64,000 nucleotides of DNA, from positions 3,844,001 through 3,908,000 of the forward strand of contig NZ_FMIB01000002.1 of NCBI RefSeq assembly GCF_900091475.1, given 5' to 3'. Below are positions 12,166 through 29,520 of the stretch, one piece after another. Position 1 is the first letter of the stretch. Every line of letters begins with the position of its first letter. The position numbers and the translations under genes were made by a program. Source of the stretch: Micromonospora chersina (GTDB lineage: Bacteria; Actinomycetota; Actinomycetes; Mycobacteriales; Micromonosporaceae). Below the pieces are notes generated by a model. That model worked only from the letters and a program-made list of their open reading frames with translations, was not told the DNA's origin and ran no database searches.

Positions 12166-12261
12166 GTTCTGTTGAGACACCTGTCGGAAATTCGGTGGAG
12201 GCCGTCCAGGCTGATCGGCCAGAGGCTATGTCGCCCCCTGTCGATGCGGGCCCTCTTCGGT

Positions 12262-12267
12262 TAGGTT
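12262..12267 (+). promoter_or_regulatory. possible -10 box of the first M6 protease gene
   Basis: TAGGTT matches TANNNT and lies inside an inverted repeat GATGCGG (12243-12249) / CCGCATC (12270-12276). The repeat could be an operator overlapping the promoter. The implied leader is about 75 bases. Confidence 0.35.
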
Positions 12268-12350
12268 CGCCGCATCGGACCGGTTCGACGGGCGTCGCTA
12301 CGACGCGCGACCGGCCGGCTCCCCCTCCCATGCCCTACGAACGGAGTGGC

Positions 12351-15143
12351 ATGCACACATTTCCGCAGTCCGGGTCACGCCGACGCCTACTCGTCGCGCT
12401 GCCCGCCATCGCCCTCGCCGCCACGTCGCTGACCGTGACGGGCAGCGCGGCCGCCCAGACGTCCGGTGCCGCCCGGGCAACCATCGGGGCGGACGACTAC
12501 TACATCAACTACGCCGAGCCGGAGGTTCAGCCGGACACGGCGGGCAAGGAGGTCAAGGGCAAGGACGGGGTCTACTCCAGCCCGGTCGACGCGGCGCGGG
12601 CCTACGACCGCAAGTTCGCGGGCGGCAACCCGAAGGCCGCGCGGGAACTGGCCAAGCTCGAGGCCAAGGCGATCAAGACGGGGCAGAGCCCCCGCCAGAT
12701 CAAGCAGGCCAAGGGCACCCAGACCGCCAAGCTGCTGACCCTGCTGGTGGAGTTCAACGACCAGGCGAACGACGACTTCACCAACGTGTACGTGCCCAAG
12801 ACGGTCTTCGAGGACCGGAGCTGCGTCCTCGGCACCGTGCAGAACGGCCCGAAGCACAACACGATCCCCAACCCGGCCAGCCTGCCGCACAAGGACAACA
12901 ACTCGATGTGGGTGCCGGACTTCTCCCCGGCGCACTACGACAAGATGCTCTACACCAAGGAGGGCATCACCGACCGGGTCCGCACGGACCTGACCGGGCC
13001 GGACGGCAAGCCGGGCATCGACATCTCCGGGCGCACCATGCACAACATGTACCTGGAGATGTCCAAGGGCGCGTACACGGTGGACGGGCAGGCCAGCCCG
13101 TGGATCACCGTGCCGCACTCGGAGGGCTGGTACGCGGCGTCCCGCTGCTTCCAGGACGAGAACGGCAACTGGGTCGCCGGTCGTGAGCAGTCGATGAACG
13201 GCCACCCGGACAACCCGCAGGGCGCCGGCCGGCTCGCCACCGACGCGGTGGACGCGCTGGCCAAGATGGACCCGAACTTCCCGTGGGCCGACTACGACAT
13301 CGAGGACCAGGGCGACGCCGACGGCGACGGCAACGTCAACGAGCCGGACGGCGTGATCGACCACCTGGTGCTGGTGCACGCCAACCAGGGCAAGTCCCGC
13401 GGCGGCGGCGACGTGGGTGTCTACTCGGTCTGGGCGCACTCCTCGACCGTGGCCGGCGGCTACACCATCCCGGGCACCAACAAGAAGGTCGCGAACTACA
13501 TCGTCCAGCCGGAGGACGCCGGCGTCGGTGTGTTCGCCCACGAGTACGGCCACGACCTGGGCCTGCCCGACCTCTACGACACCTCCGGCAACGCCGACTC
13601 GGACGTCGACTTCTGGGACCTGATGGCCTCGGGGTCGCACACCGGTGAGATCTTCCAGGCGCTGCCCACCCACATGGGCCTCTGGGACAAGTGGGTGCTC
13701 GGCTGGGCCGACCCGTTGCAGCTGAACCCGGGCGACGACCCGCGTGACGTGCAGCTGGGCCAGACCTCGAACACCCCGGTCGGCACCAAGGACGGCATCA
13801 AGGTCAACCTGCCGAACAAGGTGATCACCCTGGCGCAGCCGCACAGCGGGGCCAACATGTGGTACTCCGGCGCCGACCAGGACTGGGCGGACGTCAAGCT
13901 GAGCCGCACGGTGACCGTCCCGAACGCCGCGGACGCGAAGTTCTGGATGTGGAACAACTACGTCATCGAGGCGGACTGGGACTACGGCTTCCTGGAGGTC
14001 TCCACGAACGGTGGCGCCACCTGGTCCGAGCAGAAGGTCTACGACGCCACCGGCAAGCTCGTCACCACCAACGACGGGTACGCCGACCCGAACGGCCGGA
14101 TGGTCGACTTCGGCGGCAAGAAGTACGGCCTGACCGGCAGCACCGGCGGCTGGCGCCACGACTACGTCGACCTGTCCGCGTTCGCCGGGCAGACCGTCCA
14201 GGTCCGGCTGCGGTACGCCACCGACGAGGCGTTCGTCGAGCGCGGCTGGTTCGCCGACGACTTCTCGGTCACCGGCGGCGGCGCCACCACGTGGAGCGAC
14301 GACGTCGAGGGCGGCGCCAACGGCTGGACCCAGACCGGCGGCACCTTCACCGACACCACCGGCGCCGGCTGGCACGTCGACTCGGGCACCCAGACCAAGG
14401 CGCACTACTACCTGGCCGAGTGGCGCAACTTCGACGGCTTCGACAAGGGCCTGAAGTACGCGTACGACACGGTCTACTCGCACGAGGCGTGGAAGGTCGA
14501 CCGGATCTCGTACAACGCCCCGGGCATGCTGGTCTGGTACCGGGACACCGTGCTCGGCGACGTCAACCACGTCACCGCGCAGATGACCGCGCTGCCCAGC
14601 TACGGGGCCAAGGGCGGGCTGCTGATCGTCGACTCGCACAACGACCCGCTGCGCCGGCAGGGCGAGGCGGCCGTCAAGGACCCGTCGGTGCTGGACAACC
14701 TGCCCAGCCGCCCGCAGTCGTCCAACGCGGCCTTCTCGCTCGGCTCCTCGTACCCCTTCAAGGAGTGCCTGGAGGCGGCCGGCGAGCCGTACAGCGAGTA
14801 CTGCACCAACTTCCCGGCCCAGGGTCCGGTGCGGGCGTTCAGCGACGGCAAGGGCTGGTACCCGGGCATCGAGATCCGCAACGGCTCCGCGTACGCCCGG
14901 GACAACGACGCCTCGGTCGTCATCCCGTCGCGGGGCAACGCGAAGTACACCACCCGGGTGACCAACCCCGACGGCTCGCCGGCGACGGCGTACTACGGGG
15001 CCACCCTGGGCGGCGGGGCGATCGTGCTCGGCACCGGCAACCCCGGTGACGCGGGCGTCGCGTACGGCGTCTCGATCACCATCAAGCGGGCGGCCGCGGA
15101 CAACTCGTACGCCACGGTGTACGTGACCCCGGCAACCCCGTGA
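12351..15143 (+). CDS. secreted M6-family metalloprotease (immune inhibitor A type), 930 aa
   Basis: The signal peptide (basic start, then LLVALPAIALAATSLTVTGSAAAQ) indicates Sec export. The catalytic zinc site is HEYGHDLGLPD at residues 397-407 (HExxHxxGxxD, metzincin-like). It is preceded by an acidic DADGDGNVNEPDG loop that probably binds calcium. Beyond the protease domain two beta-sandwich, MAM-like regions follow (STNGGATWSEQKVYD; FADDFSVTGGG..WSDDVEGGANGWTQ), as in Bacillus InhA. It probably degrades host or environmental proteins. The ATG at 12351 follows GGAG; an in-frame ATG at 12330 is an alternative. It is the first and longest of three consecutive paralogues and differs from the others in its pro-region. 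Confidence 0.93.
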   Translation: MHTFPQSGSRRRLLVALPAIALAATSLTVTGSAAAQTSGAARATIGADDYYINYAEPEVQPDTAGKEVKGKDGVYSSPVDAARAYDRKFAGGNPKAARELAKLEAKAIKTGQSPRQIKQAKGTQTAKLLTLLVEFNDQANDDFTNVYVPKTVFEDRSCVLGTVQNGPKHNTIPNPASLPHKDNNSMWVPDFSPAHYDKMLYTKEGITDRVRTDLTGPDGKPGIDISGRTMHNMYLEMSKGAYTVDGQASPWITVPHSEGWYAASRCFQDENGNWVAGREQSMNGHPDNPQGAGRLATDAVDALAKMDPNFPWADYDIEDQGDADGDGNVNEPDGVIDHLVLVHANQGKSRGGGDVGVYSVWAHSSTVAGGYTIPGTNKKVANYIVQPEDAGVGVFAHEYGHDLGLPDLYDTSGNADSDVDFWDLMASGSHTGEIFQALPTHMGLWDKWVLGWADPLQLNPGDDPRDVQLGQTSNTPVGTKDGIKVNLPNKVITLAQPHSGANMWYSGADQDWADVKLSRTVTVPNAADAKFWMWNNYVIEADWDYGFLEVSTNGGATWSEQKVYDATGKLVTTNDGYADPNGRMVDFGGKKYGLTGSTGGWRHDYVDLSAFAGQTVQVRLRYATDEAFVERGWFADDFSVTGGGATTWSDDVEGGANGWTQTGGTFTDTTGAGWHVDSGTQTKAHYYLAEWRNFDGFDKGLKYAYDTVYSHEAWKVDRISYNAPGMLVWYRDTVLGDVNHVTAQMTALPSYGAKGGLLIVDSHNDPLRRQGEAAVKDPSVLDNLPSRPQSSNAAFSLGSSYPFKECLEAAGEPYSEYCTNFPAQGPVRAFSDGKGWYPGIEIRNGSAYARDNDASVVIPSRGNAKYTTRVTNPDGSPATAYYGATLGGGAIVLGTGNPGDAGVAYGVSITIKRAAADNSYATVYVTPATP

Positions 15144-15519: not shown

Positions 15520-17820
15520 TTGAGGAGACGAGTCACAGCGGGCCTGGCCTCGGCCGCGGCCGCGCTGCTGGCAGCCGGTGTCGTCACGACGCCGGCGTCC
15601 GCCGCCCCGGCGGCGGAGCCCACCCCCGGCGTCGAGAAGGCCAAGCACAAGGACAACCTGGCGGATCCGAAGGCGGATCAGCAGCGGGAGGTCAAGAAGC
15701 AGGCGATCGCCGACCTGCTTCAGGGCAAGGCCAAGCTCCAGACGCGCAACGGCTCGAAGGTCATCCAGGTCAAGGACGACCTGTTCGTCGAGTACCAGCA
15801 GGCCCCGAAGACCGACCCGATCTTCACCATGCTGGTCAACTTCGGCGACAAGACGGACCCCCGCACCGGTGGAACCCCCGGTCCGGTGGCCAACCAGATC
15901 CCCGAGCCGGACCGCAACTGGGACGGCAGCTCCACCGACGACAACAGCACCCTGTGGCGGTCCAACTTCGACCGGGCCCACTACATGGACATGTTCTACG
16001 GTGAGGGCGAGTCGTTCCGGGACTTCTACCTCAAGCAGTCCGGCGGCCGGTACACCGTCAACGGTGACGTCAGCGACTGGGTCACCGTTCCCTACAACGA
16101 GGCCCGGTACGGCAGCAACGCCATCTCCGAGGCCGACGGCTACTGGAACTTCATCAAGGACAGCGCCACGTCCTGGTACGAGTCCCAGAAGGCGGCCGGC
16201 AAGACGCCCGAGCAGATCAAGGCGTACCTGGCCCAGTTCGACATCTGGGACCGGTACGACTTCGACGGCGACGGCAACTTCAACGAGCCCGACGGCTACC
16301 TCGACCACTTCCAGGCGGTGCACGCCGGTGAGGGCGAGGAGGCCGGCGGCGGCGCCCAGGGCGAGGACGCCATCTGGTCGCACCGCTGGGCGGCGTTCAC
16401 CAACCTCGAGGGCAAGGCCGGCCCGGCCGGCAACCTCGCGGGTGGTGTGCAGATCGGCGACACCGGGATGTGGATCCGTGACTACACCACGGAGCCGGAG
16501 AACGGCGGCCTCGGCGTCTTCGCCCACGAGTACGGTCACGACCTCGGTCTGCCGGACCTGTACGACACCGCGGGCGGCGACAACGGCGTCGGCTTCTGGA
16601 GCCTGATGTCCTCGGGTTCGTGGCTGGGCCACGGCACCGACGACATCGGTTCGACCCCGGGCTACATGGACCCGTGGTCGAAGCTCTTCCTGGGCTGGCT
16701 GAACCACAGCACGGTCGAGTACGGCAAGGGCAGCACCCAGGTGACCCTGGGCCCGGCCGGTGACAGCGACGGGCCGAAGGCCCAGGCTGTCGTCGTCAAC
16801 CTGCCCGCGCAGACGCAGACCACGAACTACAACACGCCCTTCGGCGGGTCGTACGAGTGGTGGGGTGGCAGCGCGGACGACCTGAACGCCACGCTGACCC
16901 GCACCCTGGACCTGACCGGCGCGACCTCCGCGTCGATCACCTCCAAGCTGCAGTACGACATCGAAGAGGACTACGACTACCTCTACGCCGAGGTGTCGAA
17001 CAACGGCGGCGCCACCTGGACCGACCTGAAGAACAACCTGGTCGACGCGGGTGACAGCGGCATCGACGGTTCCAGCAACGGCGCGTGGGTCGACTCGACC
17101 TACGACCTGTCGGCGTTCGCCGGTCAGACCGTGCTGTTCCGCTACCGCTACGCGACCGACGGTGGCGTGCACTTCGCCGGTCCGTTCCTGGACAACGTCT
17201 CGCTGACCAAGAACGGCTCGGTCGCGTGGACCGACGACGCGGAGACCCTCGCCGCGGAGTGGACCGCCAAGGGTTGGACCCGGATCACCGGCTCGGTGAC
17301 CGACACCTACCCGCGCTTCTACATCGCCGAGAACCGGACCTGGTTCGGTTACGACGACACGCTGCGGACCGGCCCGTACAACTACGGGTTCGCCAGCCGC
17401 CCGAACTGGGTGGAGCACTTCTCCAACCACCAGGGCATGCTGGTCTGGTACGTGAACTACGCGTACGGCGACAACAACACGTCGACGCACCCGGGCTACG
17501 GCCTGAACCTGCCGGTGGACGTCCGTCCCGACAAGATCAACGTCGGCGGGCAGGGCACCATCACCAACCGGCGCAACGGCTACGACGCCACGTTCAGCCT
17601 GTACGCCAAGCCGGCGCAGACCTTCCACAAGAACGACGTGGCGGTCACCGTTCCGGCGCTCGACCCGCAGCCGATCTTCAGCGACAAGGGCATCGCCAAG
17701 TACTGGAACGCGGGCAACCCGTGGAACTCGGTGAAGGTCGCCGGCACCGGCACCACCATCGAGATCCTCAAGCAGGGCACCACCCCGACCAGCGACATGG
17801 TCGTCAAGGTCACCAACTGA
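15520..17820 (+). CDS. secreted M6-family metalloprotease, 766 aa
   Basis: Second of the trio. The TTG start is preceded by a very strong AAAGGAGGAGG (15505-15515). The signal peptide is MRRRVTAGLASAAAALLAAGVVTTPASAAPA. A pro-region of about 90 residues (VKKQAIADLLQGKAKLQ) is followed by the protease domain with HEYGHDLGLPDLYD at residues 336-349 and a DFDGDGNFNEPDG calcium-type loop. The C-terminal half repeats the immune-inhibitor A beta domains (YAEVSNNGGATWTDL; DNVSLTKNGSVAWTDDAE). The sequence is much closer to the third paralogue than to the first. Independent leader and terminator indicate a monocistronic gene. Confidence 0.93.
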   Translation: MRRRVTAGLASAAAALLAAGVVTTPASAAPAAEPTPGVEKAKHKDNLADPKADQQREVKKQAIADLLQGKAKLQTRNGSKVIQVKDDLFVEYQQAPKTDPIFTMLVNFGDKTDPRTGGTPGPVANQIPEPDRNWDGSSTDDNSTLWRSNFDRAHYMDMFYGEGESFRDFYLKQSGGRYTVNGDVSDWVTVPYNEARYGSNAISEADGYWNFIKDSATSWYESQKAAGKTPEQIKAYLAQFDIWDRYDFDGDGNFNEPDGYLDHFQAVHAGEGEEAGGGAQGEDAIWSHRWAAFTNLEGKAGPAGNLAGGVQIGDTGMWIRDYTTEPENGGLGVFAHEYGHDLGLPDLYDTAGGDNGVGFWSLMSSGSWLGHGTDDIGSTPGYMDPWSKLFLGWLNHSTVEYGKGSTQVTLGPAGDSDGPKAQAVVVNLPAQTQTTNYNTPFGGSYEWWGGSADDLNATLTRTLDLTGATSASITSKLQYDIEEDYDYLYAEVSNNGGATWTDLKNNLVDAGDSGIDGSSNGAWVDSTYDLSAFAGQTVLFRYRYATDGGVHFAGPFLDNVSLTKNGSVAWTDDAETLAAEWTAKGWTRITGSVTDTYPRFYIAENRTWFGYDDTLRTGPYNYGFASRPNWVEHFSNHQGMLVWYVNYAYGDNNTSTHPGYGLNLPVDVRPDKINVGGQGTITNRRNGYDATFSLYAKPAQTFHKNDVAVTVPALDPQPIFSDKGIAKYWNAGNPWNSVKVAGTGTTIEILKQGTTPTSDMVVKVTN

Positions 17821-18090: not shown

Positions 18091-20538
18091 GTGCGCAAAG
18101 TCGCAGTGGGTCTGCTCGGGCTTTCGTTGACGGCGACAGGGCTGGTGGCGGGCACGGCCGCCAGCGCGGCGCCGACCCCGAAGCTGCCGGCTGCCGCTCC
18201 GGCGGCGGCCGAGCCGCAGGCCCCTCACGATCTGCCGGACAAGCTCGAGGACAAGCGGCGGGCACTCCGCCAGGAGGGCCTCAGCGAGGTTCTGTCCGGC
18301 CGGGCCAAGGCCCAGAAGATCAACGGCAGCACCGTCGTCAAGGTCGGCGAGACCGCCGGCGGCGCGGCGGCGGCGGCCGGCGCTCGGACCGCCAGCAACA
18401 AGGCGGGCAAGAAGGACCAGTACGTCGAGCTGGCCCGGGAACGGACCGACAAGATCTTCGTGATCCTCGCCGAGTTCGGCGACGAGCGCGACCCGGCCTA
18501 CCCGGACAAGGACACGAACCCGGACATCGCAGGTCCGACCCGGTTCGACGGTCCGCGGCACAACGAGATTCCGCAGCCCAACCGGGCGGTGGACAACTCC
18601 ACCGTCTGGCAGGCCGACTACAGCGCCGACTACTTCCGGCAGCTGTACTTCGGCACCAAGCCGGGCGACGAGTCGCTCAAGCAGTACTACGAGGCCCAGT
18701 CGTCCGGCCGCTACACGGTGGACGGTGAGGTCACCGACTGGGTGAAGGTCAAGTACAACGCCGCCCGGTACGGCCGCTCGGACGACCCGATCGCCGACGA
18801 CTCGGACGACCCGGCCAACGACCCGGCCGTCTGCGCGGACAACGTCTGCCCGAACACCTGGGACCTGATCCGCGACGCCGCCAACCAGTGGGTCGCCGAC
18901 CAGAAGGCCAAGGGCCGCACCGACGCCCAGATCAAGGCCGACATGCAGTCGTTCGACCAGTGGGACCGGTTCGACTACGACGGCGACGGCAACTTCAACG
19001 AGCCGGACGGCTACATCGACCACTTCCAGATCGTCCACTCCGGCGGCGACCAGGCCGACGGTGACCCGCACCAGGGTGAGGACGCCATCTGGAGCCACCG
19101 GTGGGCGGCGTACAACACGTCGCGCGTCGGTCCGCCGAACTTCCCGATCGGCGGCACCGAGATCGGCGACACCGGCGTCTGGATCCGCGACTACACGATC
19201 CAGCCGGAGAACGGTGGCCGCAGCGTCTTCTACCACGAGTACGGCCACGACCTCGGTCTGCCGGACGACTACAACGTCATCAGTGGTGGGGACAACAACA
19301 ACGAGCACTGGACCCTGATGGCCCAGAGCCGGCTCAGCGGCAAGAACGACGCCGGCATCGGCGAGCGCGGCGGCGACCTCGGCGCCTGGAACAAGCTCCA
19401 GCTCGGCTGGCTCGACTACGAGGTGGTCAAGGCCGGGCAGAAGCGCGACCTGAACCTGGGCCCGCAGGAGTACAACTCCAAGAAGGCGCAGGCCGCGGTC
19501 GTGGTGCTGCCACAGCGGGAGTACACCTTCCAGTACGGCGCTCCGTTCGAGGGCACCAAGCAGTACTTCTCCGGTAACGACGACGACCTGGACAACACCA
19601 TGACCAGGACGCTCGACTTCACCGGGAAGACCTCGGCGGCGCTGTCCATGAAGGGGCGCTTCAACATCGAGACCGGCTACGACTACCTCTTCTTCGAGGC
19701 GTCGCTGGACGGCGGCAAGACCTGGGCCGCCCTGCCGGGCACGGTCAACGGCAAGCCGATCCCGCCGGTGTCCAACACCGACCCGACCCCGGGTCTGACC
19801 GGCAGCAGCGCGGGCAAGTGGGTGGACATCAACATCCCGATGGACGCGGCGGCCGGCAAGGTCGTGCAGTTCCGCTTCCACTACCTCACCGACGGTGGGG
19901 TCTCCTCCGGCGGCTTCTTCGGTGACGCCATCACCGTGACCGCCGACGGCCAGACCGTGCTCAGCGACGGCGCCGAGGCCGGTGCCGGGGACTGGGCGCT
20001 CGACGGCTGGAGCATCACCGGGGAGAGCTACACCCGGCTCTTCGACAACTACTACATCGCCGGCAACCGGTCGTACGTCTCGTACGACAAGTACCTGAAG
20101 ACCGGCCCGTACTTCTTCGGCTACGCGAACACCCGCCCGGACTACGTGGATCACTACGCGTACCAGACGGGTCTGCTGATCTCGTACTGGAACCTCCGGT
20201 ACGCGGACAACGACACGTTCGCCCACCCGGGCGAGGGTCGTAACCTGATCATCGACGCGCACCCGCGGCCGATCTACAACCTGACCGGCGCCCCGTGGCG
20301 GGCCCGCGTCCAGGTCTACGACGCGCCGTTCAGCCTGAAGAAGGCGGACTCGTTCACGCTGCACATCAACAGCCAGCCGCAGTACATCCGTGGCCAGGCC
20401 GCGCAGCCGCTGTTCGACGACACCAAGCAGTACTGGTACCCGGAGCTGCCGAACCACGGCGTCAAGGTTCCGGCCGCCGGCGTCAAGATCAAGGTTCTCC
20501 AGCAGGACGGCACCTCGATGAAGGTCCGCTTCTCCTGA
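18091..20538 (+). CDS. secreted M6-family metalloprotease, 815 aa
   Basis: Third of the trio. The GTG start follows GGAGGT (18080-18085). The signal peptide MRKVAVGLLGLSLTATGLVAGTAASA is followed by a pro-region (ALRQEGLSEVLSGRAKAQK) like that of the second gene. The zinc site is HEYGHDLGLPDDY at residues 382-394, where the usual DLYD is DDYN. A DYDGDGNFNEPDG loop precedes it. The C-terminal half carries the immune-inhibitor A beta domains (FEASLDGGKTWAAL; FGDAITVTADGQTVLSDGAE). A perfect palindrome in its leader, absent from the other two genes, suggests separate regulation. Confidence 0.93.
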   Translation: MRKVAVGLLGLSLTATGLVAGTAASAAPTPKLPAAAPAAAEPQAPHDLPDKLEDKRRALRQEGLSEVLSGRAKAQKINGSTVVKVGETAGGAAAAAGARTASNKAGKKDQYVELARERTDKIFVILAEFGDERDPAYPDKDTNPDIAGPTRFDGPRHNEIPQPNRAVDNSTVWQADYSADYFRQLYFGTKPGDESLKQYYEAQSSGRYTVDGEVTDWVKVKYNAARYGRSDDPIADDSDDPANDPAVCADNVCPNTWDLIRDAANQWVADQKAKGRTDAQIKADMQSFDQWDRFDYDGDGNFNEPDGYIDHFQIVHSGGDQADGDPHQGEDAIWSHRWAAYNTSRVGPPNFPIGGTEIGDTGVWIRDYTIQPENGGRSVFYHEYGHDLGLPDDYNVISGGDNNNEHWTLMAQSRLSGKNDAGIGERGGDLGAWNKLQLGWLDYEVVKAGQKRDLNLGPQEYNSKKAQAAVVVLPQREYTFQYGAPFEGTKQYFSGNDDDLDNTMTRTLDFTGKTSAALSMKGRFNIETGYDYLFFEASLDGGKTWAALPGTVNGKPIPPVSNTDPTPGLTGSSAGKWVDINIPMDAAAGKVVQFRFHYLTDGGVSSGGFFGDAITVTADGQTVLSDGAEAGAGDWALDGWSITGESYTRLFDNYYIAGNRSYVSYDKYLKTGPYFFGYANTRPDYVDHYAYQTGLLISYWNLRYADNDTFAHPGEGRNLIIDAHPRPIYNLTGAPWRARVQVYDAPFSLKKADSFTLHINSQPQYIRGQAAQPLFDDTKQYWYPELPNHGVKVPAAGVKIKVLQQDGTSMKVRFS

Positions 20539-21630: not shown

Positions 21631-21996
21631 TCAGACCCGCTGCTCGCGCAGGTCGGTCACCTCGTTCGCGGGCGCCCAGCCCTGGTAGACGCCGAAGTCG
21701 AACGCCTCCAGCCCCATCTTCTGGGCCACCGGCCAGCGGCCGCCGGTGTACTCCACGCGCAGCCAGCCGTCGTGCTCGGCCAGCACGATGAACGGCTGCC
21801 CCTGCCAGGTGCAGGTGGTCCGCACGTACGCCAGGTCCTCGACCTCGGCAACCGGCACCACCCGGACGTGCCGGCCGGGGCGTACCTCGGTGAAGCCCTC
21901 GCCCGGCTCCGGCTGGTACAGGCGGACGTCGCCGCCGTCCGGGCTGGCCTGGTACTCCCGGCCCCGCCAGCGGGCCACGTAGCCGTCGCGGGTCAC
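21631..21996 (-). CDS. small partner protein of the SseB-domain gene
   Basis: A 121-residue soluble protein with a beta-rich sequence (YVARWRGREYQASPDGGDVRLYQPE, LAYVRTTCTWQGQPFIVLAEHDGWLRVEYTGGRWPVAQKMGLEAFDFGVYQGWAPANEV). I do not recognise a named family. Its GTG overlaps the stop of the large SseB-domain gene as GTGA, so the two are co-translated and probably act together, perhaps as chaperone, ligand or inhibitor. No signal peptide is seen. A small protein directly coupled to an SseB-type gene next to a mycosin points to a role around type VII secretion, but this is inference from context only. Confidence 0.72.
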   Translation of the reverse strand: MTRDGYVARWRGREYQASPDGGDVRLYQPEPGEGFTEVRPGRHVRVVPVAEVEDLAYVRTTCTWQGQPFIVLAEHDGWLRVEYTGGRWPVAQKMGLEAFDFGVYQGWAPANEVTDLREQRV

Positions 21997-24900
21997 GCCT
22001 CGTCCGCCCTGACCCAGAGCAGCGCGTCGGTGTCCAGCACGGCGACCACCCGCTCGCTGCGATCCGCGCCGATCCGCCACAGCTCGGCGCCGTGCGGCAG
22101 CCGGGCGCTGTCCACCTTGAACTCGGCGACCACGTCGCTGCTCTCCCCCGGGGCGAAACCGTTGCCGCGGAACGGGGGCCGCTCGATCACCCAGCCCTCC
22201 ATCGCCCGCATCGCGCCCTCGTTCTGCCCGCCGTAGGGGATCCGGTAGAGGCTCGGCCGGTAGGCCGGCCAGCGCAACACGTAGATCTCCTCGGCGTCAC
22301 GGGAGAACGGCGAGCCGGGGTGGCCGAGACCGAGCGCGTCGTACAGCTCGGCCGGGGTGCCGAGGTGGGCCAGCTCGCCGGCCCGGTGCACGAAGCCGGA
22401 CACCCGGTCGTAGCCGCGCTCCAGGTAGTAGGCGAGCTGGCTGGGAGCGATCGCCTTCTGCATGGTCACGGGGCGGGCCGGGTCCACCGCCGGCGCAGCG
22501 GGCCGGGGCTCGGCCGACGGCGCCGGTGCGGTGGTGGGCGGCTCCGGCTCGGTCTCCGGGTCGTCACCCAGCCCCACCTCGGCGGCCCAGTTGGCCAGCG
22601 CGAGAACCTGCTCCCCCGGGTACGTCGCCCCGACCGGGGTGCCCGGGTTCACGGCGAACGACCAGCTCACGTCCGGCCAGCGGCGGATGAGCTGCACGAA
22701 CTTGACCCGTACCGTCTCGGTCGGGCCGCCGGCCCGGTGCGCCAGCCGCTCGGGCGAGGTGTAGACCACCACGTACGTCCCGCCGTCGATCTGCTCCGTG
22801 CACCAGACGAAGCCGGGATCGCCCGGCCGGCTGCCCGCCACTGAATCGGCGGCGACCGGCAGCAGCACCCGGGCCAGCAGCAGGGTGGTGAGGAAGCTGT
22901 CGGTGCTGCCGCTGCCGGCCGCGCTCAGCAGTTCCTCCTCGACCTCGTTGGCGGGCACGAAGTCGGCGTCCCTGGCACCGTCCACCGGGGACCCTGCGGC
23001 TCCGGCCGTTGGCTTTTCCGGCGGCACGGGCCCGGCCGCGGGCGCGAACACCGACGTCGTCGGCTCGGCCGCCGGGGCAGCCGGCGCGAACATGGACGTG
23101 GCCGGCCCCTCCGCGGCGGCAGCGGTCGGTACGAACACCGAGGTGGTCGCCTCGTCAGCGGCGACATTCGGCGCGAACACCGACGTCGTCGGCTCCTCGG
23201 CTGCCGGCGTGAACGGCCGCGTGTCCGTCCCTGCGGGTGGCTCGAAGAGGGGCACGTCCGGCGGGGGCGCGGGCGGCTCGAACAGCGGCTCGGTCCGCTC
23301 GTCCTCAGAAGGGGCCGGCGCGAAGAGCGTTGTCCTCTCCTCCGCCGGGGCGCTCCGGTCCCGCTGCGGCGCCGTGGGCTCCGTCGACGCGAACAGCGAC
23401 GCGGTCGGCTCGGGCGCCGGGGAGGCCGAGGCGAACCGCGACGTGGTCGGCTCGGGCGCCGGGGAGGTGGGCGCGAACAGCGAGGTCGTCGCCTCGTCCG
23501 CCGTCGCGCCCCGGTCGGGCGGGGACACCACCGGGCCGGCGGGCGGCCCCGCCAGCGGCGCGGTCGGCTCGTCCCCCGAGCCGGCAGCGGTGAACAGCGG
23601 CGACGGGCGCGGATCGTCGGCCGGGTTCGACGCGTGCGGCGCGGACGGGCCGGACAACGGCGCGGACGGGCCGGACAGCGGCACGGTCCGCTCGGCGGGC
23701 ATGTCGGCGGGCGTCCCCGCGGCAGGAGCCGCCCGGAGGTCGGACGGCCCGGCGGCACGGTCGAGGACCGGCGACGGAGGCGGGTCGACGAGCAGCGGCA
23801 CGGTGGGGTCGGTGGGACCGGCCCAGGGCGCCGCCGGGCCGCCGTCCCCCGGGGACGCGGCCGGCGCCGTGGCCGACGCCATCGCGGAGGCGGCGGCGGG
23901 CACCGTGGGCACCGCGTACGGCGCGGGCGGCGGAACGGCGGCGGGGCGCGGCGCCGGCTCGGTCAGCTCGCGGGACTCGATGACGGTGCCCTCGATGACG
24001 ATCGGGGTGAAGCCCCGGCGCGACGCGGGTGGGGCGGACACCGGCTCGGCGATCGACGGCGGAAGCTCCTCGGCCTCGGCGAGGTCGGCCGGGCCGGGGA
24101 TCGGCTGGGTCTGGTCCTCCGATCCCGGGTCGTCGCCCGTGCCGGGGTGCCGCCGGGGCAGCGCCTGGGTGGCCTCTGCGGCCGGGGCCGGGCGGAACGG
24201 CCGCTCCGGTTCCGCGGGTCGGCTCGCCGGGGTCGGTTCGGCCGGGTTTACCCGGAACGCCTGCGTCGGGTCCTCCGGAACCGGCTCGTTCAGCGGCCGG
24301 CGGCGCGGGAACGGCTGGCCGCCGCCGGCGAACCGGGAGGGCGGCGTCGCCCGGTCCCCGCCGCGGCGCGGCGCGTCCAGCGGCGAGGGGCGCCGGGGCG
24401 AACGGCCGGAGGTGGGCTCGAAGAAGGATCGGGCGGGTGGCGGCGCGGGTTCGACCGATCGGCCGTTGGTGGGGCCGGAGCGGCCGGCATCGGTGAACGG
24501 ATCCGGCTCGTCGGGACGCCGACGCAGGTCGGTGAGCCAGCCGTCGAGATTGTCCGCGCCCGGCTCGCTGCCGGCGGGGCCGGTGGGCCGCGCGTCGTCC
24601 CACGTACGGCGGCCGAGCGGGCGGGCCGGACGGCCGTTCGCCGGGTCGGGGCGGCGGGACGGTGGTGGGGCGGGCGGGTCGGCCGCGCCGGGGACGGTGG
24701 GCCGGGTGCTCGGGGCGGGAACGGTGGGGATCGGAACTGTCGACGGCTCGCCGGCCGGCTCGCTGCGGGCCGGCGGCACCCGCCCTCCGGCCGCCGGGGA
24801 CACGGGTGGCGGGGACACAGGCGGCGGGGACACGGGCGGCGGGGGGACGTCCCGGCCGGGCGCGGGCGGGCCACCCCGGGCGGCCCGGGCGGCGCTCTCC

Positions 24901-25334
24901 ACCCGCTCCAGGCGAGCGCGGGCGCCCATGGTCCGGCCCGGCAGCCGGACGTCGCCCCGGGCGAGCTGCGCGACGAACCAGGCCGGCAGGTAGCCCTCGA
25001 TGGGCAGCCCCGGATTGACCGCCAGCCACCACTCGTGGTTGGGCCAGTCCGCGGCCAGGTCGGCGTACGGGACCCGGCGGGTGGCGCCGGCGTTCTCGCC
25101 CAGGCAGGCGCGCAGCGCGGTGGCGGAGGTGAAGGCCAGGACGTGCGTGCGGCCCCCGGTGGTCCAGGTGCCCCAGCCCGTCGGGCCCCGCCCGGCGGGC
25201 TTCTCCGCGGCGACCGGCAGCAGCAGATCGACGCGGGTCAGGACGCGGAAGTAGAGCTGCTGGTCCTGTGCGCGGAGCGCATCCCGCATCGCCACCTCGG
25301 CCTCGGTGGCCGGTTCCCATCCGGTCACGGCCAC
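21993..25334 (-). CDS. large type VII secretion-associated protein with two SseB domains and a phospho-motif-rich linker
   Basis: About 1,113 residues. The first SseB N-terminal-type domain (about 15-140: LYFRVLTRVDLLLPVAAE.. HVLAFTSATALRACLGE.. WWLAVNPGLPIEGYLP) is followed by a Pro/Ala-rich linker (about 150-780), a second SseB domain (about 785-930: SFLTTLLLARVLLPVAAD.. YVVVYTSPERLAHRAGG.. WSFAVNPGTPVGATYP) and a C-terminal domain (about 960-1113). Residues about 353-765 of the linker repeat [DE]-x-T-x-x-hydrophobic motifs: DPTQAF, EATQAL, DQTQPI, EATTSLF and EPTTSVF several times. The last type equals the TTSVF phospho-motif of GarA. SseB proteins accompany ESX systems in actinobacteria. 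A GTG at 25328 with better ribosome-site spacing is an alternative start. Confidence 0.85.
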   Translation of the reverse strand: MAVTGWEPATEAEVAMRDALRAQDQQLYFRVLTRVDLLLPVAAEKPAGRGPTGWGTWTTGGRTHVLAFTSATALRACLGENAGATRRVPYADLAADWPNHEWWLAVNPGLPIEGYLPAWFVAQLARGDVRLPGRTMGARARLERVESAARAARGGPPAPGRDVPPPPVSPPPVSPPPVSPAAGGRVPPARSEPAGEPSTVPIPTVPAPSTRPTVPGAADPPAPPPSRRPDPANGRPARPLGRRTWDDARPTGPAGSEPGADNLDGWLTDLRRRPDEPDPFTDAGRSGPTNGRSVEPAPPPARSFFEPTSGRSPRRPSPLDAPRRGGDRATPPSRFAGGGQPFPRRRPLNEPVPEDPTQAFRVNPAEPTPASRPAEPERPFRPAPAAEATQALPRRHPGTGDDPGSEDQTQPIPGPADLAEAEELPPSIAEPVSAPPASRRGFTPIVIEGTVIESRELTEPAPRPAAVPPPAPYAVPTVPAAASAMASATAPAASPGDGGPAAPWAGPTDPTVPLLVDPPPSPVLDRAAGPSDLRAAPAAGTPADMPAERTVPLSGPSAPLSGPSAPHASNPADDPRPSPLFTAAGSGDEPTAPLAGPPAGPVVSPPDRGATADEATTSLFAPTSPAPEPTTSRFASASPAPEPTASLFASTEPTAPQRDRSAPAEERTTLFAPAPSEDERTEPLFEPPAPPPDVPLFEPPAGTDTRPFTPAAEEPTTSVFAPNVAADEATTSVFVPTAAAAEGPATSMFAPAAPAAEPTTSVFAPAAGPVPPEKPTAGAAGSPVDGARDADFVPANEVEEELLSAAGSGSTDSFLTTLLLARVLLPVAADSVAGSRPGDPGFVWCTEQIDGGTYVVVYTSPERLAHRAGGPTETVRVKFVQLIRRWPDVSWSFAVNPGTPVGATYPGEQVLALANWAAEVGLGDDPETEPEPPTTAPAPSAEPRPAAPAVDPARPVTMQKAIAPSQLAYYLERGYDRVSGFVHRAGELAHLGTPAELYDALGLGHPGSPFSRDAEEIYVLRWPAYRPSLYRIPYGGQNEGAMRAMEGWVIERPPFRGNGFAPGESSDVVAEFKVDSARLPHGAELWRIGADRSERVVAVLDTDALLWVRADEA

Positions 25335-25480: not shown

Positions 25481-26683
25481 ATGTCCCGGCCCACCGCGCG
25501 CCCGGCCCTGGCCGTTCTGGTGACCCTCCTGGTCGCCGGGTTTCCGGCCGCCCCGGCGGCGGCCCGGGCACCGTCGGCCTGCGCCACGCCGCCCACGCCG
25601 GCCCGCCCCGTCGCGGAGCAGCCCTGGCCCCAGCAACGGTACGCGCCGGACCGGCTCGCCCCCCTCGCCACCGGCGCGGGGGTGGTGGTCGCGGTGGTCG
25701 ACTCCGGGGTGGACCGGTCCCATCCGCAGCTCGCCGGCCGGGTGCTCGACGGGGTCGACTTCCTCGACCGGGGCGGCGACGGCACCCGGGACTGCGCGGG
25801 GCACGGCACCGGCGTGGCGAGCATCATCGCCGCCGCGCCCCGGCCGGGTGTGGCCTTCCGCGGGCTCGCGCCGGACGCGCGCATCCTGCCGGTACGCGTC
25901 AGCGAGCAGCAGGTGGTCGAGGGGCGGGAGTCGGGGCGTACGGTCGGGGCGGCCGACTTCGCGCGGGCGATCCGGTGGGCGGTGGACCACGACGCGGACG
26001 TGGTCAACCTGTCCGTCGTGCTGTACGCGGACGACCCCGCCGTGCGCGCCGCGATCGCCTACGCGGTCCGGCGGGACGTCGTGCTGGTGGCCGCCGCCGG
26101 CAACCTGCACGACAGCGGCGACCCCCGCCCGTACCCGGCCGCCTATGACGGGGTGCTGGGGGTGGGCGCGATCGGGGCGGACGGCATCCGCGCCGCCTTC
26201 TCGCAGACCGGCCCGTACGTCGACCTGGTCGCCCCGGGCAGCGACGTGCTCATGGCGGCGCCCCGGCAGGGTCACCACCGGGCGGAGGGGACGAGCTACG
26301 CGGCGCCCTTCGTGGCCGGCACCGCGGCGCTGGTCCGGCAGTACCGCCCCGAACTGGACGCGGCCGAGGTCGCCCGGCGGATCGTGGCGAGCGCCGACCC
26401 GGCTCCGGGGCGGGCGGACGGTTACGGCACGGGGGTGCTGAACCCGTACCGCGCGGTGACCGAGACGGGTGGGCCGGCCTCCGGCCGGGGGACGGGGGCG
26501 GCGCTCCCGGTCGACCGGCCGGACGCCGCGGAGCTGGCGCGGCAGGCGCGCCGGACGACGGCCCGGGACCGGGCGCTGCTGGTGGCCGGCACCACCGGGG
26601 CCGCCGCCCTCCTGGTGATGCTGCTCGCCGTGGTGCTGCCCCGCGGGGCGCGCCGCCGCTGGCACCCGGCCGACCCGGCCTGA
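25481..26683 (+). CDS. mycP: mycosin-like subtilisin protease of a type VII secretion system
   Basis: A 400-residue membrane-anchored S8 serine protease. Signal peptide (LAVLVTLLVAGFPAAPAAA), then catalytic Asp74 (VAVVDSGVD), His108 (CAGHGTGVASI), oxyanion Asn208 (AAAGNLHD) and Ser272 (EGTSYAAPFVAG). A C-terminal helix (LLVAGTTGAAALLVMLLAVVL) and basic RGARRR tail follow. This is the mycosin layout; MycP cleaves ESX substrates and stabilises the secretion membrane complex. The start is supported by GGAGG. Transcribed divergently from the SseB gene and towards the WXG100 genes, it is a core component of this small ESX locus. Confidence 0.93.
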   Translation: MSRPTARPALAVLVTLLVAGFPAAPAAARAPSACATPPTPARPVAEQPWPQQRYAPDRLAPLATGAGVVVAVVDSGVDRSHPQLAGRVLDGVDFLDRGGDGTRDCAGHGTGVASIIAAAPRPGVAFRGLAPDARILPVRVSEQQVVEGRESGRTVGAADFARAIRWAVDHDADVVNLSVVLYADDPAVRAAIAYAVRRDVVLVAAAGNLHDSGDPRPYPAAYDGVLGVGAIGADGIRAAFSQTGPYVDLVAPGSDVLMAAPRQGHHRAEGTSYAAPFVAGTAALVRQYRPELDAAEVARRIVASADPAPGRADGYGTGVLNPYRAVTETGGPASGRGTGAALPVDRPDAAELARQARRTTARDRALLVAGTTGAAALLVMLLAVVLPRGARRRWHPADPA

Positions 26684-26845: not shown

Positions 26846-27139
26846 TCACTGGAACAGGTTGACGTTGCGCTTCTCGGTGTCGAGGTAGTCGGCCGCGGAG
26901 TCCTCCACGGCCAGCTTGATGTCGCGCAGCATGGCCTGGAGGTCCTGCGAGGCGGCCCGCCAGCGGGCCTGCCGCTGCTCGTACGCCTCGCGCGCCTCGC
27001 CGGACCAGCTCGTCACCAGCGGGGCGGCGTCGCGTTCGAGCTGCCCGAGCTGGCTTTCGAGGGTGGTCAGCGCCCTCTGGATGTCCGCGCCGGCCTGTTG
27101 CAGGGCGGCGAAGTTGACGACCAGCACACCGTGGTCCAT
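26846..27139 (-). CDS. WXG100 family ESX protein (EsxA-like)
   Basis: A 97-residue helical-hairpin protein: helix one (FAALQQAGADIQRALTTLESQLGQLERDA), the turn W45-S-G47 and helix two (AREAYEQRQARWRAASQDLQAMLRDIKLAV). It ends with YLDTE, which fits the YxxxD/E type VII export signal. ESX proteins are secreted as dimers through the EccC channel. The ATG is preceded by GAAGGA with 7-base spacing. It lies 18 bases after its partner gene in the same transcript. Confidence 0.93.
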   Translation of the reverse strand: MDHGVLVVNFAALQQAGADIQRALTTLESQLGQLERDAAPLVTSWSGEAREAYEQRQARWRAASQDLQAMLRDIKLAVEDSAADYLDTEKRNVNLFQ

Positions 27140-27157: not shown

Positions 27158-27487
27158 TCAGAGCGGTAGCTGGATGCCGCGGTTGGTGCCCGCCACCCGG
27201 CCGGCGGCCTCGGTGTCGGACACGTCGTACTGCCGGCCGGCGGTGCGGATCGCGGTCGCGGTCTCCCGCAGCGCCCGTTGCAGGGCCGCCTGATCCTGCG
27301 CCCACTGCTGCTTGACCTGCGCGAAGGAGCGCCCACCGGCGCCCCGCCAGGCCTGCTGCAACACCTCCAGCTCGGCCATCAGGCCGCTGAGCATGGTCTG
27401 CAGCGACTGGTCGACCTGCTCGAACTTCGCGGCGGTCTGCTGCATCACCGCGGCTTCTGCCTGGGTCTGGGACACCCCGGACGTCAC
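27158..27487 (-). CDS. WXG100 family ESX protein (EsxB-like)
   Basis: A 109-residue helical-hairpin protein with the turn W47-R-G49 (LQQAWRGAGGRSF) and a C-terminal YDVSD export motif (YxxxD) followed by a flexible tail ending GIQLPL. It is the likely dimer partner of the downstream WXG100 protein. Both partners carry a YxxxD/E motif, whereas in many pairs only the EsxB-type one does. The GTG start follows GAGGAG at 5 bases. It is first in the two-gene unit and is transcribed divergently from eccE. Confidence 0.93.
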   Translation of the reverse strand: MTSGVSQTQAEAAVMQQTAAKFEQVDQSLQTMLSGLMAELEVLQQAWRGAGGRSFAQVKQQWAQDQAALQRALRETATAIRTAGRQYDVSDTEAAGRVAGTNRGIQLPL

Positions 27488-27662: not shown

Positions 27663-27668
27663 TACGAT
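27663..27668 (+). promoter_or_regulatory. possible -10 box of eccE
   Basis: TACGAT fits TANNNT and leaves a leader of about 37 bases containing GAGGAGG before the GTG. It lies within the 224-base divergent region between the WXG100 unit and eccE. Confidence 0.35.
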
Positions 27669-27711
27669 GTGCCACGGCGGCGTCACCCGGCGAACACGCG
27701 GAGGAGGTGCG

Positions 27712-29520
27712 GTGACCGCGACCACGACCGGCCGGCCGGCTTCCGCACCCGCCCCGCCGGCGCAGTGGACGCGGCGGCCGGCTCCGGCCGTTCGCGCCGG
27801 GCAGGTGGTGGCCGCCCAGGTCGCGGTGGCGGTGCTGGTCGCGGCCGTGGGCCGGGGTGTCCCGGTGACGGCGGCGGCCCTGCTGCTGGCAGCGGTCCTG
27901 CTCCCCGCCACCTGGGTCCGGTTCCGGGGCCGCTGGCTCTTCGAGTGGCTCGCCGTCGGCGCGGCGTACCTGGCCCGGCGGCGCGCCCTGCCGGCGGCCT
28001 CCGGGCCGGCCGCGCTGCTGGAGCTGGCGCACCCCGGGGCGGTGGTGCGCCCGGCGGAGCTGGCCGGCGGCCCGGCGGCGGTGCTGGAGGACGCCGCCGG
28101 GATGACCGCGCTGCTGGAGATCGGCGACCCGGACGACCTGCTCGGCGAGGGCCCGCGGGAGTTGCCGTCGCCGCTCGGCCTGCTGCCCGTGCCCGGGCCG
28201 GAGAGCCCACCGGTCCGGATCCAGCTGCTGTGCTCGGCGTCGCCCGCGCCGGCGCCCACCGCCGGGGCGGGCACGGCCGGCACGTCGTACCGGCAGCTCA
28301 CCGACGGGCGGCTGGCGGGGCGGGCCCGCACGGTGCTGGCGGTCCGGGTGCTCCGGGCCGACGGCTGGTCGGACGAGGAGCTGCGTCGCGCCCTGTCCGG
28401 CACGGTCCGGCGGATCGTGCGCCGGCTCGGCCCGCTCTCCGGTCGCCCGCTCGGCGGTCCGGCGGCGCTGCGCGTGGTGGCCGAGCTGGCCCACCACGAC
28501 GCCGGGGCGCCCGTGCGGGAGAGCTGGCCGGCGGTGACCGTGGGCGGGCTGCCGCAGACCACCTGGCGGCTGCGCCGGTGGCCGGATCCGCGCACCGACG
28601 CGGCGCGGCGGATGGTGTCCCGGCTGCTGGCGCTGCCGGCCACCGCCACCACCGTGTCGCTCTGCGTGGGCCCGCGCGCCGGCGCCGACGCCGCGCCCAC
28701 GCCGGCCGAGCTGACCGTACGCCTGGCCGCCCGCACCACCGCCGAGCTGTCGGTGGCCGAGCGGGCGCTGCGCCGGCTCGCCGGGGATCTCGGCGCGCAT
28801 CTGCGCCGGCTGGACGGCGAGCACCTGGCCGGGCTGGCGGCCACGCTGCCGCTGGCGGTGGCCCGCGCCGCCGCCCCGGTCGGGCCGGAGCTGGCCGCCC
28901 TGGAGCTGACTCTCGGCGAGTCGGGGTTGATGGTGGGCGCGAACCGGCACGGCGGCGCCGTGACCGTACGCCTGTTCCGGCCCACGACGACCCGGCTGCT
29001 GCTGGTCGGTGGGGCACGCGCGGCCCAACTGCTGGCCCTGCGGGCGCTGGCGCTCGGCGCCCGGGTGGCGGTGCAGACGACCCGGCCCCGGGTCTGGGAG
29101 CCGTTCGTCCGCGGGGTGGGCGCACCGGGCGGTGCGGTGCCGCTGGTCCCGCCGGGGCGGCCGGTCGGCGGCGCGCCGGGGTCGCCGCTGCACCCGTTGC
29201 TGCTGGTCGTCGACGTCGGCCCGGTGCCGCCGGAGGTCGGTCCGGCGGCGGCCTGGCAGTCGGTGCTTGTGGTCCGCGACGAGCTGACCCCGGCCGACAC
29301 GGCCGCGCTGGCCCGCGCGGACCTCGCGATCCTGCAACCGCTCGACCCCGGCGAGGCCGCGCTGGCCGGCGCGGCGCTGGGCCTGGGCGGTTCGGCGGAC
29401 TGGCTGACCCGGATCCGGGACGACATGGTGGCGGTGGTGAACCGGCGGGCGTTGCGGTGGGCGCTGCTCTCGCCGACGCCCATCGAGTCGCAACTGGTCG
29501 GTCGCCCGGCCCGCCATTGA
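27712..29520 (+). CDS. eccE: type VII secretion protein EccE
   Basis: A 602-residue protein with two adjacent membrane helices at about residues 28-65 (VVAAQVAVAVLVAAVGRGVPVTAAALLLAAVLLPATWVRF) followed by a large cytoplasmic domain with RTVLAVRVLRADGWSDEELRRAL and a C-terminal part ending DWLTRIRDDMVAVVNRRALRW. This layout is that of EccE, a peripheral subunit of the ESX membrane complex. The GTG follows GAGGAGGTG. Its partners EccB, EccC and EccD are not in the window, so this locus either completes a system encoded elsewhere or is an incomplete remnant. Confidence 0.85.
   Translation: MTATTTGRPASAPAPPAQWTRRPAPAVRAGQVVAAQVAVAVLVAAVGRGVPVTAAALLLAAVLLPATWVRFRGRWLFEWLAVGAAYLARRRALPAASGPAALLELAHPGAVVRPAELAGGPAAVLEDAAGMTALLEIGDPDDLLGEGPRELPSPLGLLPVPGPESPPVRIQLLCSASPAPAPTAGAGTAGTSYRQLTDGRLAGRARTVLAVRVLRADGWSDEELRRALSGTVRRIVRRLGPLSGRPLGGPAALRVVAELAHHDAGAPVRESWPAVTVGGLPQTTWRLRRWPDPRTDAARRMVSRLLALPATATTVSLCVGPRAGADAAPTPAELTVRLAARTTAELSVAERALRRLAGDLGAHLRRLDGEHLAGLAATLPLAVARAAAPVGPELAALELTLGESGLMVGANRHGGAVTVRLFRPTTTRLLLVGGARAAQLLALRALALGARVAVQTTRPRVWEPFVRGVGAPGGAVPLVPPGRPVGGAPGSPLHPLLLVVDVGPVPPEVGPAAAWQSVLVVRDELTPADTAALARADLAILQPLDPGEAALAGAALGLGGSADWLTRIRDDMVAVVNRRALRWALLSPTPIESQLVGRPARH

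Follow-up and report, generated by a model that had tools for sequence, protein, structure and literature searches.

The stretch considered here, 64,000 nucleotides of the 6.68-megabase (Mb) genome of Micromonospora chersina (G000:C2:3844001-3908000, hereafter the window, to which plain coordinates refer), encodes an SseB-domain protein of 1113 residues (21993..25334, minus strand; Pfam SseB match and GC-frame choice), whose long linker carries 13 copies of the short motif [DE]-x-T-x-x-hydrophobic. This motif is kept by selection in Micromonospora, and the selection is specific to threonine, as we can state with high confidence. We favour, as somewhat probable, a reading in which the linker is a multivalent scaffold of short linear motifs, carrying a phospho-threonine code common to a receptor kinase and to this type VII-linked SseB protein.

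The array spans residues 355-762 (23049..24272, minus strand; pattern [DE].T..[LIFVMWY]) and comprises a proximal group (DPTQAF at residue 355, EATQAL at 387, DQTQPI at 407), a middle group (DPTVPL 509, ERTVPL 548, EPTAPL 589, EATTSL 614, EPTASL 642) and a distal group (ERTTLF 666, ERTEPL 679, EPTTSV 714, EATTSV 728, EPTTSV 757). All twelve peptides which a preliminary description of this DNA had listed in linker residues 353-765 (about 24278-23042, minus strand) are present, and ERTTLF at 666 had escaped it. The 633 linker residues used for counting thus hold 13 matches, compared with a mean of 0.83 and a maximum of 6 in 5000 composition-preserving shuffles, the acid at -2 of all 13 sites being built into the search pattern. 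Over its whole chain, the protein was also the strongest motif outlier (13 against 2.1 expected) among 1489 predicted genes, drawn from 80 stretches representing about a quarter of the genome, from the window and from targeted loci including 20 kinase loci. In Pro/Ala-rich segments of 100 residues, 11 of 45 threonines of the SseB protein lay in a motif. For other proteins the count was 14 of 958 over 178 segments, and at least two motifs were held by only two of these segments (a kinase segment with three, one other with two).

Homologous linkers were clearly marked by the same motif. The homologue set consisted of 201 sequences, i.e., the query, the best 120 of 830 protein matches and 80 kept of 130 loci; 24 sequences in which no N-terminal domain was found were left out, yielding 177 sequences and 162 distinct linkers, and the closest named homologues among the matches listed were from Micromonospora (e.g., M. 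fulviviridis and M. chersina). The median motif count was 6 against 0.71 expected; the observed number was reached by at most 2 of 500 shuffles in 140 of the 162 linkers, and an excess was lacking (more than 25 of 500 shuffles reaching the count) in seven. The frequency in the motif frame was 1231/6628 for threonine and 84/6683 for serine, a roughly 15-fold difference, so that compositional drift does not account for the motif. Around linker threonines, positions -2 and -3 were rich in E/D, +1 in Q and V, and +3 in L/F/I (enriched about 3- to 4-fold), +3 being the position at which FHA domains select their ligands; this profile included five linkers mis-set to zero length, which were excluded from the counts on 162 linkers.

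Conservation was strongest at the three proximal sites when the 162 linkers were aligned with MAFFT. Site 355, DPTQAF (24255..24272, minus strand), kept Thr in 131/161 sequences, an acid at -2 in 73/159 and at -3 in 140/159, and Phe at +3 in 138/162. Site 387, EATQAL (24159..24176, minus strand), kept Thr in 137/159, an acid at -2 in 154/160 and Leu at +3 in 149/156, while its -1 residue varied between A, T, P, V, I and S. Site 407, DQTQPI (24099..24116, minus strand), kept Thr in 139/161, an acid at -2 in 135/158 and I or L at +3 in 129/159. Threonine was thus retained in 81-86% of aligned linkers, and its codons varied synonymously between loci (ACC, ACG and ACT, with ACA at two sites): purifying selection therefore acts on sites 355, 387 and 407. 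The distal sites, which lie within a degenerate 42-nucleotide repeat, were less conserved. Over the linker, mean identity to the query was 0.62 for motif threonines (11 sites) and 0.35 for other threonines (27 sites).

Every one of the 61 family genomes sampled, from 44 genera, encoded the SseB protein. Besides M. chersina, 50 of the remaining 60 genomes supplied homologues, two linkers being too short and some cut by a contig end, and 48 were tested. At least three motifs were found in 3 of these 48, two belonging to the same genus (15 and 3 motifs) and one to another genus (G010, locus L143; five copies of a DLTMAM/ELTTAM repeat); the others had 0-2. In the larger homologue set, the Plantactinospora linkers had 1 and 0 motifs and those of Salinispora 1, 1 and 2. 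Judged by these sequences, the protein is older than the array, which is found chiefly in Micromonospora, since nearly all other-genus homologues carry 0-2 motifs. The preliminary description had named homologues without the motif in their linkers as refuting its proposal, and outside the genus this was the outcome.

A second protein carries the motif in its TQ form, [DE]xTQxh (h, hydrophobic). A transmembrane Ser/Thr kinase of 678 residues (G000:C2:3493672-3495708) has five copies before its membrane helix, EATQRI, DATQRL, DATQRV and DTTQPV twice. In the 1489-gene sample, to which kinase loci had been deliberately added, only the SseB protein and this kinase had at least two such copies, any copy at all being found in 15 genes, and of 15 kinase-like genes, read completely or partly, this was the only one with the array. 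Its non-catalytic part had relatives in 55 of 61 genomes. In 30 loci examined, with linker ends set by a rule of thumb, TQ motifs numbered 5, 3 and 6 in the three same-genus loci and 0 in all 27 other-genus loci, where the broad motif had 0, 1 or 2 copies. Named loci gave access to 30 genomes, in which TQ motifs numbered 2-9 in each of the 24 of Micromonospora/Verrucosispora type, 2, 1 and 1 in Salinispora, 0 and 0 in Plantactinospora, and 0 in Micromonospora sp. HM5-17.

With thresholds of at least three motifs of any kind in the SseB linker and at least two TQ motifs in the kinase, 52 of 55 genomes had either both arrays (26) or none (26), an SseB array alone being seen in 1 and a kinase array alone in 2, with five of the 60 genomes being without an SseB count and one count (L058, 3 motifs) coming from a 504-residue protein without a set linker. 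The corresponding Fisher p (2.9e-12) takes no account of kinship and is not readable as a probability. In a tree built from the C-terminal SseB domain, some branches of which were long and unsure, both arrays coincided with the Micromonospora clade; M. echinofusca, with a kinase array only, was the first branch of this clade, Salinispora (L078, L081, L084) was nested inside it with low counts of both arrays, and Micromonospora sp. HM5-17 (L075) clustered with Plantactinospora. These patterns are suggestive of one joint gain and one joint reduction of both arrays, a small number of events.

Mechanistically, Ser/Thr kinases would phosphorylate the array threonines, which is probable in our view: most M. 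tuberculosis kinases prefer acceptors with acidic residues at -2 to -5 (Prisic et al., cited in PMC6030727), and the E/D enrichment at -2 and -3 agrees with this preference. Phospho-threonine-binding FHA proteins, with four candidates in the genome, would then engage several sites simultaneously. That the sites are read by FHA proteins is reasonably likely, if less so than their phosphorylation; FHA domains are described as primarily phospho-threonine binders, with one reported exception that binds phosphoserine (PMC4238996), and the bias for Thr over Ser is, as a comparison of sequences, consistent with this anchor preference. The SseB protein, possibly a peptide-binding chaperone, would thereby be tethered to kinase/FHA assemblies, and tethering would tune type VII secretion, or keep the SseB protein away, depending on kinase activity. 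Such an action on type VII secretion is proposed tentatively. As reported in PMC10653824, less ESAT6 is secreted when the ESX-1 protein CFP10 carries a phosphomimetic change, and phosphorylation of Fha1 by PpkA acts on type VI secretion.

Alternatively, the motif may be a constitutive docking peptide, independent of phosphorylation, for a cytosolic domain such as a kinase site, a chaperone or a type VII secretion ATPase, its threonine being kept for shape or hydrogen bonding. Conservation patterns alone cannot separate a phospho-motif from such a peptide, yet the 15-fold preference for Thr over Ser, the acid at -2/-3 and the hydrophobic residue at +3 fit kinase and FHA recognition, and the same array stands in a kinase juxtamembrane segment, a type of segment phosphorylated on seven threonines in StkP according to PMC12077195; we therefore regard docking without phosphorylation as unlikely.

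A still less probable explanation is neutral expansion, in which a Pro/Ala-rich linker amplifies repeats by slippage and the motif is a passenger of the repeat unit. The distal copies do lie in a degenerate repeat of 42 nucleotides, or 14 residues (22994..23557, minus strand; repeat families D1 and D3), which carries the TTSVF-type motifs; TTS[VLI]F is limited to 30 of 162 linkers; and a weaker two-copy match, 36 nucleotides at 78%, is found between sites 355 and 407 (repeat family D7). Against this, the three proximal sites keep their threonine while -1 varies and codons change synonymously, the Thr/Ser asymmetry is wide, and at least two motifs occur in only 2 of the 178 Pro-rich segments of other proteins. 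Pure composition or slippage was thus rejected for the proximal sites, for which neutral expansion is largely refuted, and partly accepted for the distal repeat, the copy number of which it may explain.

The preliminary description had compared the array with the phospho-switch of GarA and OdhI. Four FHA domains of the genome exceeded the cut-off, all outside the window. Two adjoin genes resembling pknA, pknB, rodA and a phosphatase (neighbours judged by eye); the other two belong to GarA and to an FHA protein of 187 residues. The GarA orthologue (L002:1177-1749, plus strand; FHA by Pfam) lies between gcvH-like and MerR-like genes, as judged by eye, and reads DVTSTL where mycobacterial GarA has ETTSVF (aligned by eye). 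In the TTSxF-type copies, which keep both threonines in 115 cases, the first Thr is kept singly in 76 and the second in 20, and the register of this first Thr, with an acid at -2 and V/L at +3, differs from that of the GarA phosphosite, which we take to be Thr22. A GarA/OdhI-type switch, in which TTSVF copies recognised by PknB/PknG would bind the GarA FHA domain in trans and link glutamate and tricarboxylic acid cycle control to the SseB protein, is thus very improbable, as the shared TTSVF string and the presence of a GarA orthologue are outweighed by ETTSVF being absent from all 162 linkers, by DVTSTL in the local GarA, by the shifted register and by the restriction of TTS[VLI]F to 30 linkers, inside a repeat. 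Identity beyond string resemblance was rejected, and the GarA/OdhI-type label is weak; the part of the earlier interpretation that invoked a multivalent kinase/FHA substrate fits the conservation of motif threonines, the preference for Thr over Ser and the kinase array. A search with PF16919 (PknG) gave no match, but its controls were equally silent and it allows no statement on PknG.

The 187-residue FHA protein was considered as a genus-specific reader and rejected: close orthologues (E < 1e-27) occurred in 13 of 61 genomes, 10 of them outside the genus, and eight of these ten had 0-2 SseB motifs, G010 having 5 and G037 being uncounted. This protein does not explain the gain of the array, because its orthologues occur outside the genus without the array.

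Several observations weigh against the scaffold that we favour. The one FHA protein traced family-wide, that of 187 residues, predates the array, which is itself absent from most other genera although the SseB protein is universal in the family, and is therefore unnecessary for the core function of this protein. Co-occurrence of the two arrays reflects few evolutionary events; M. echinofusca has a kinase array (4) but zero SseB motif, G010 has its five SseB motifs without a kinase TQ array, and the copy numbers of the two arrays were uncorrelated in the 26 genomes bearing both (Spearman -0.20, p 0.32). The distal TTSxF-type copies, being partly repeats, are not all independent. Motif threonines were expected by the preliminary description to stay conserved while the remaining linker drifts, and this held relative to other threonines; other linker residues were equally or more conserved (mean identity R 0.71, F 0.66, P 0.59), so that the linker also contains other conserved stretches. 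Eight of 49 family loci, three short and five full-length, had no type VII gene nearby. Finally, the Micromonospora phosphoproteome literature listed yielded no data on phosphorylation or binding for a protein of this genus.

The motif is not confined to these two proteins. Scanned over the entire genome, a codon pattern encoding [DE]xTQxh had 91 matches, compared with 32 for the reversed pattern, and formed five same-strand clusters (within 200 base pairs), each inside an open frame, the first two being the SseB linker and the 678-residue kinase. The third lies in the C-terminal tail of a mechanosensitive-channel-like protein adjoining another Ser/Thr kinase (L332:8804-9769; G000:C2:626803-627765), with the motifs ELTRPV, DRTQPV, EPTQPV and EATMII; at least one [DE]xTQxh was found in 15 of 27 orthologous tails examined in other genera, and the motif is therefore older than the SseB array. 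The fourth is in a membrane protein without Pfam match (L333:7860-9368, minus strand), whose Pro-rich C-terminal tail ends with DPTQAI and DRTQRF, and the fifth is in an open frame (L334:6655-9225, plus strand) with a MaoC-like domain, ahead of which stands a segment with EATQDL, DRTQDL, DLTQDA and DRTRDL. No genus-wide enrichment of the TQ pattern was seen, its density being 11.6-13.6 per Mb in three same-genus genomes, within the range of the 58 others (4.6-14.6, median 10.9).

It is conceivable, although we hold this only as a tentative proposal, that Micromonospora evolved a lineage-specific phospho-threonine code, made of [DE]xTQxh and its relatives and displayed by the receptor kinase, the SseB protein and a few others, with a common FHA reader, thus forming a graded and multivalent switch from kinase to secretion, while related arrays would stand on other tails elsewhere in the family, e.g., on a DacB-like protein.

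This DacB-like protein, from another genus (G012:C38, L366:2314-6984), is a peptidase-S13 (D-Ala-D-Ala carboxypeptidase) protein of 1556 residues with 15 [DE]xTxxh motifs, mostly DSTQVI and all but one of them (14) of the TQ form, at residues 629-1021 within a very long acidic low-complexity N-terminal part followed by a membrane helix at about 1105. In M. chersina, a sortase near the pknA/pknB-like cluster (L188:2159-3907, plus strand) has a motif copy, DDPTAFLP, in its N-terminal tail.

The ingredients of this system are of known kinds; their combination is new. Juxtamembrane segments of StkP and PknB, as described in PMC12077195, likewise hold several threonines in a disordered cytosolic segment, with docking of FhaA on the phosphorylated segment in the case of PknB; here, by contrast, the longest array of putative phosphosites belongs to a protein that is no kinase, encoded at a type VII secretion locus, and follows a regular [DE]-x-T-x-x-hydrophobic code shared with one kinase. 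The N-terminal ETTS phosphosite of GarA and OdhI (PMC12321487) also places a threonine in an acidic and hydrophobic context, and the TTSVF string recurs, whereas the SseB chain has no FHA domain and no ETTSVF, a shifted register and multiple copies rather than a single one. The regulation of type VI secretion by PpkA and Fha1 (PMC10653824) follows the kinase-FHA logic proposed here, but in an unrelated secretion system; the window holds no FHA domain, and its candidate substrate is an SseB-domain protein. Phosphorylation of CFP10 of ESX-1 by PknA, treated in the same source, ties Ser/Thr phosphorylation to type VII secretion in an actinobacterium, but on Thr10 and Thr49 of a secreted WXG100 protein and not on the repetitive linker of an accessory protein.

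Such an array was not described in the titles and abstracts among the matches listed for GarA/OdhI/FHA, SseB with type VII secretion, kinases, multisite phosphorylation and Micromonospora phosphoproteomes, subscription literature being mostly outside these, and no experiment on the role of the SseB-domain protein in type VII secretion was found in the literature listed on type VII secretion with SseB, FHA or kinases. To our knowledge, little is settled about the path from kinase signalling to type VII secretion in actinobacteria, and few linear-motif codes have been described from disordered regions of bacterial proteins. From sequence alone, the motif could be defined and its conserved sites located, and candidates could be named, namely one kinase that bears the same array and, as readers, four FHA domains; the idea thereby becomes testable in a soil bacterium.

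The 1113-residue protein consists of an N-terminal SseB-like domain, the linker of about 640 residues dominated by Pro and Ala, a C-terminal SseB domain and a conserved C-terminal segment. The C-terminal domain (PF07179, residues 801-910) scored 60.1 bits, and the copy within the N-terminal 165 residues was weaker (23.5 bits), likewise above the Pfam cut-off of 21; they are the only two SseB matches in the genome, and the Pfam scan of the chain detected SseB alone and no FHA domain. We take the protein to be cytosolic, since hydropathy revealed no clear membrane segment (top 19-residue mean 1.67, within an SseB domain). The SseB domain is predicted to be a peptide-binding chaperone (PMC9503650). 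An AlphaFold model of the C-terminal 315 residues was mediocre (predicted local distance difference test 66.8, predicted template-modelling score 0.46), and Foldseek returned nothing at E <= 0.001 for it, the top match being TTHA0547 (2z0r; E 0.0044, target template-modelling score 0.59), with Tic22 listed at E 3.9 only; the chaperone role, which the domain may have, thus rests on the published prediction, our model neither confirming nor excluding it. A sequence search of the PDB gave a single match (E 0.65), which was not useful.

Near the SseB gene stand genes of type VII secretion, all exceeding their NCBIfam cut-offs: a mycosin (MycP) serine protease (25481..26683, plus strand; TIGR03921, 324.5 bits, cut-off 278.75), two WXG100 (Esx) proteins (26846..27139 and 27158..27487, both minus strand; TIGR03930, 69.5 and 54.6 bits, cut-off 44.85) and EccE (27667..29520, plus strand; TIGR03923, 138.5 bits, cut-off 108), the eccB genes being located elsewhere in the genome. 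Among the 49 family loci fetched, mycP was found in 35, the two esx genes in 34 and 33, and eccE in 27, at least one of them being present in 41. By its gene neighbourhood, the SseB protein is encoded beside type VII secretion genes, which implies neither that it is secreted nor that it belongs to the machine; its earlier designation as a secretion protein was thus overstated. Three consecutive genes of the window (12195-15143, 15520-17820 and 18091-20538) encode large proteins with M6 (immune-inhibitor-A-like) peptidase domains.

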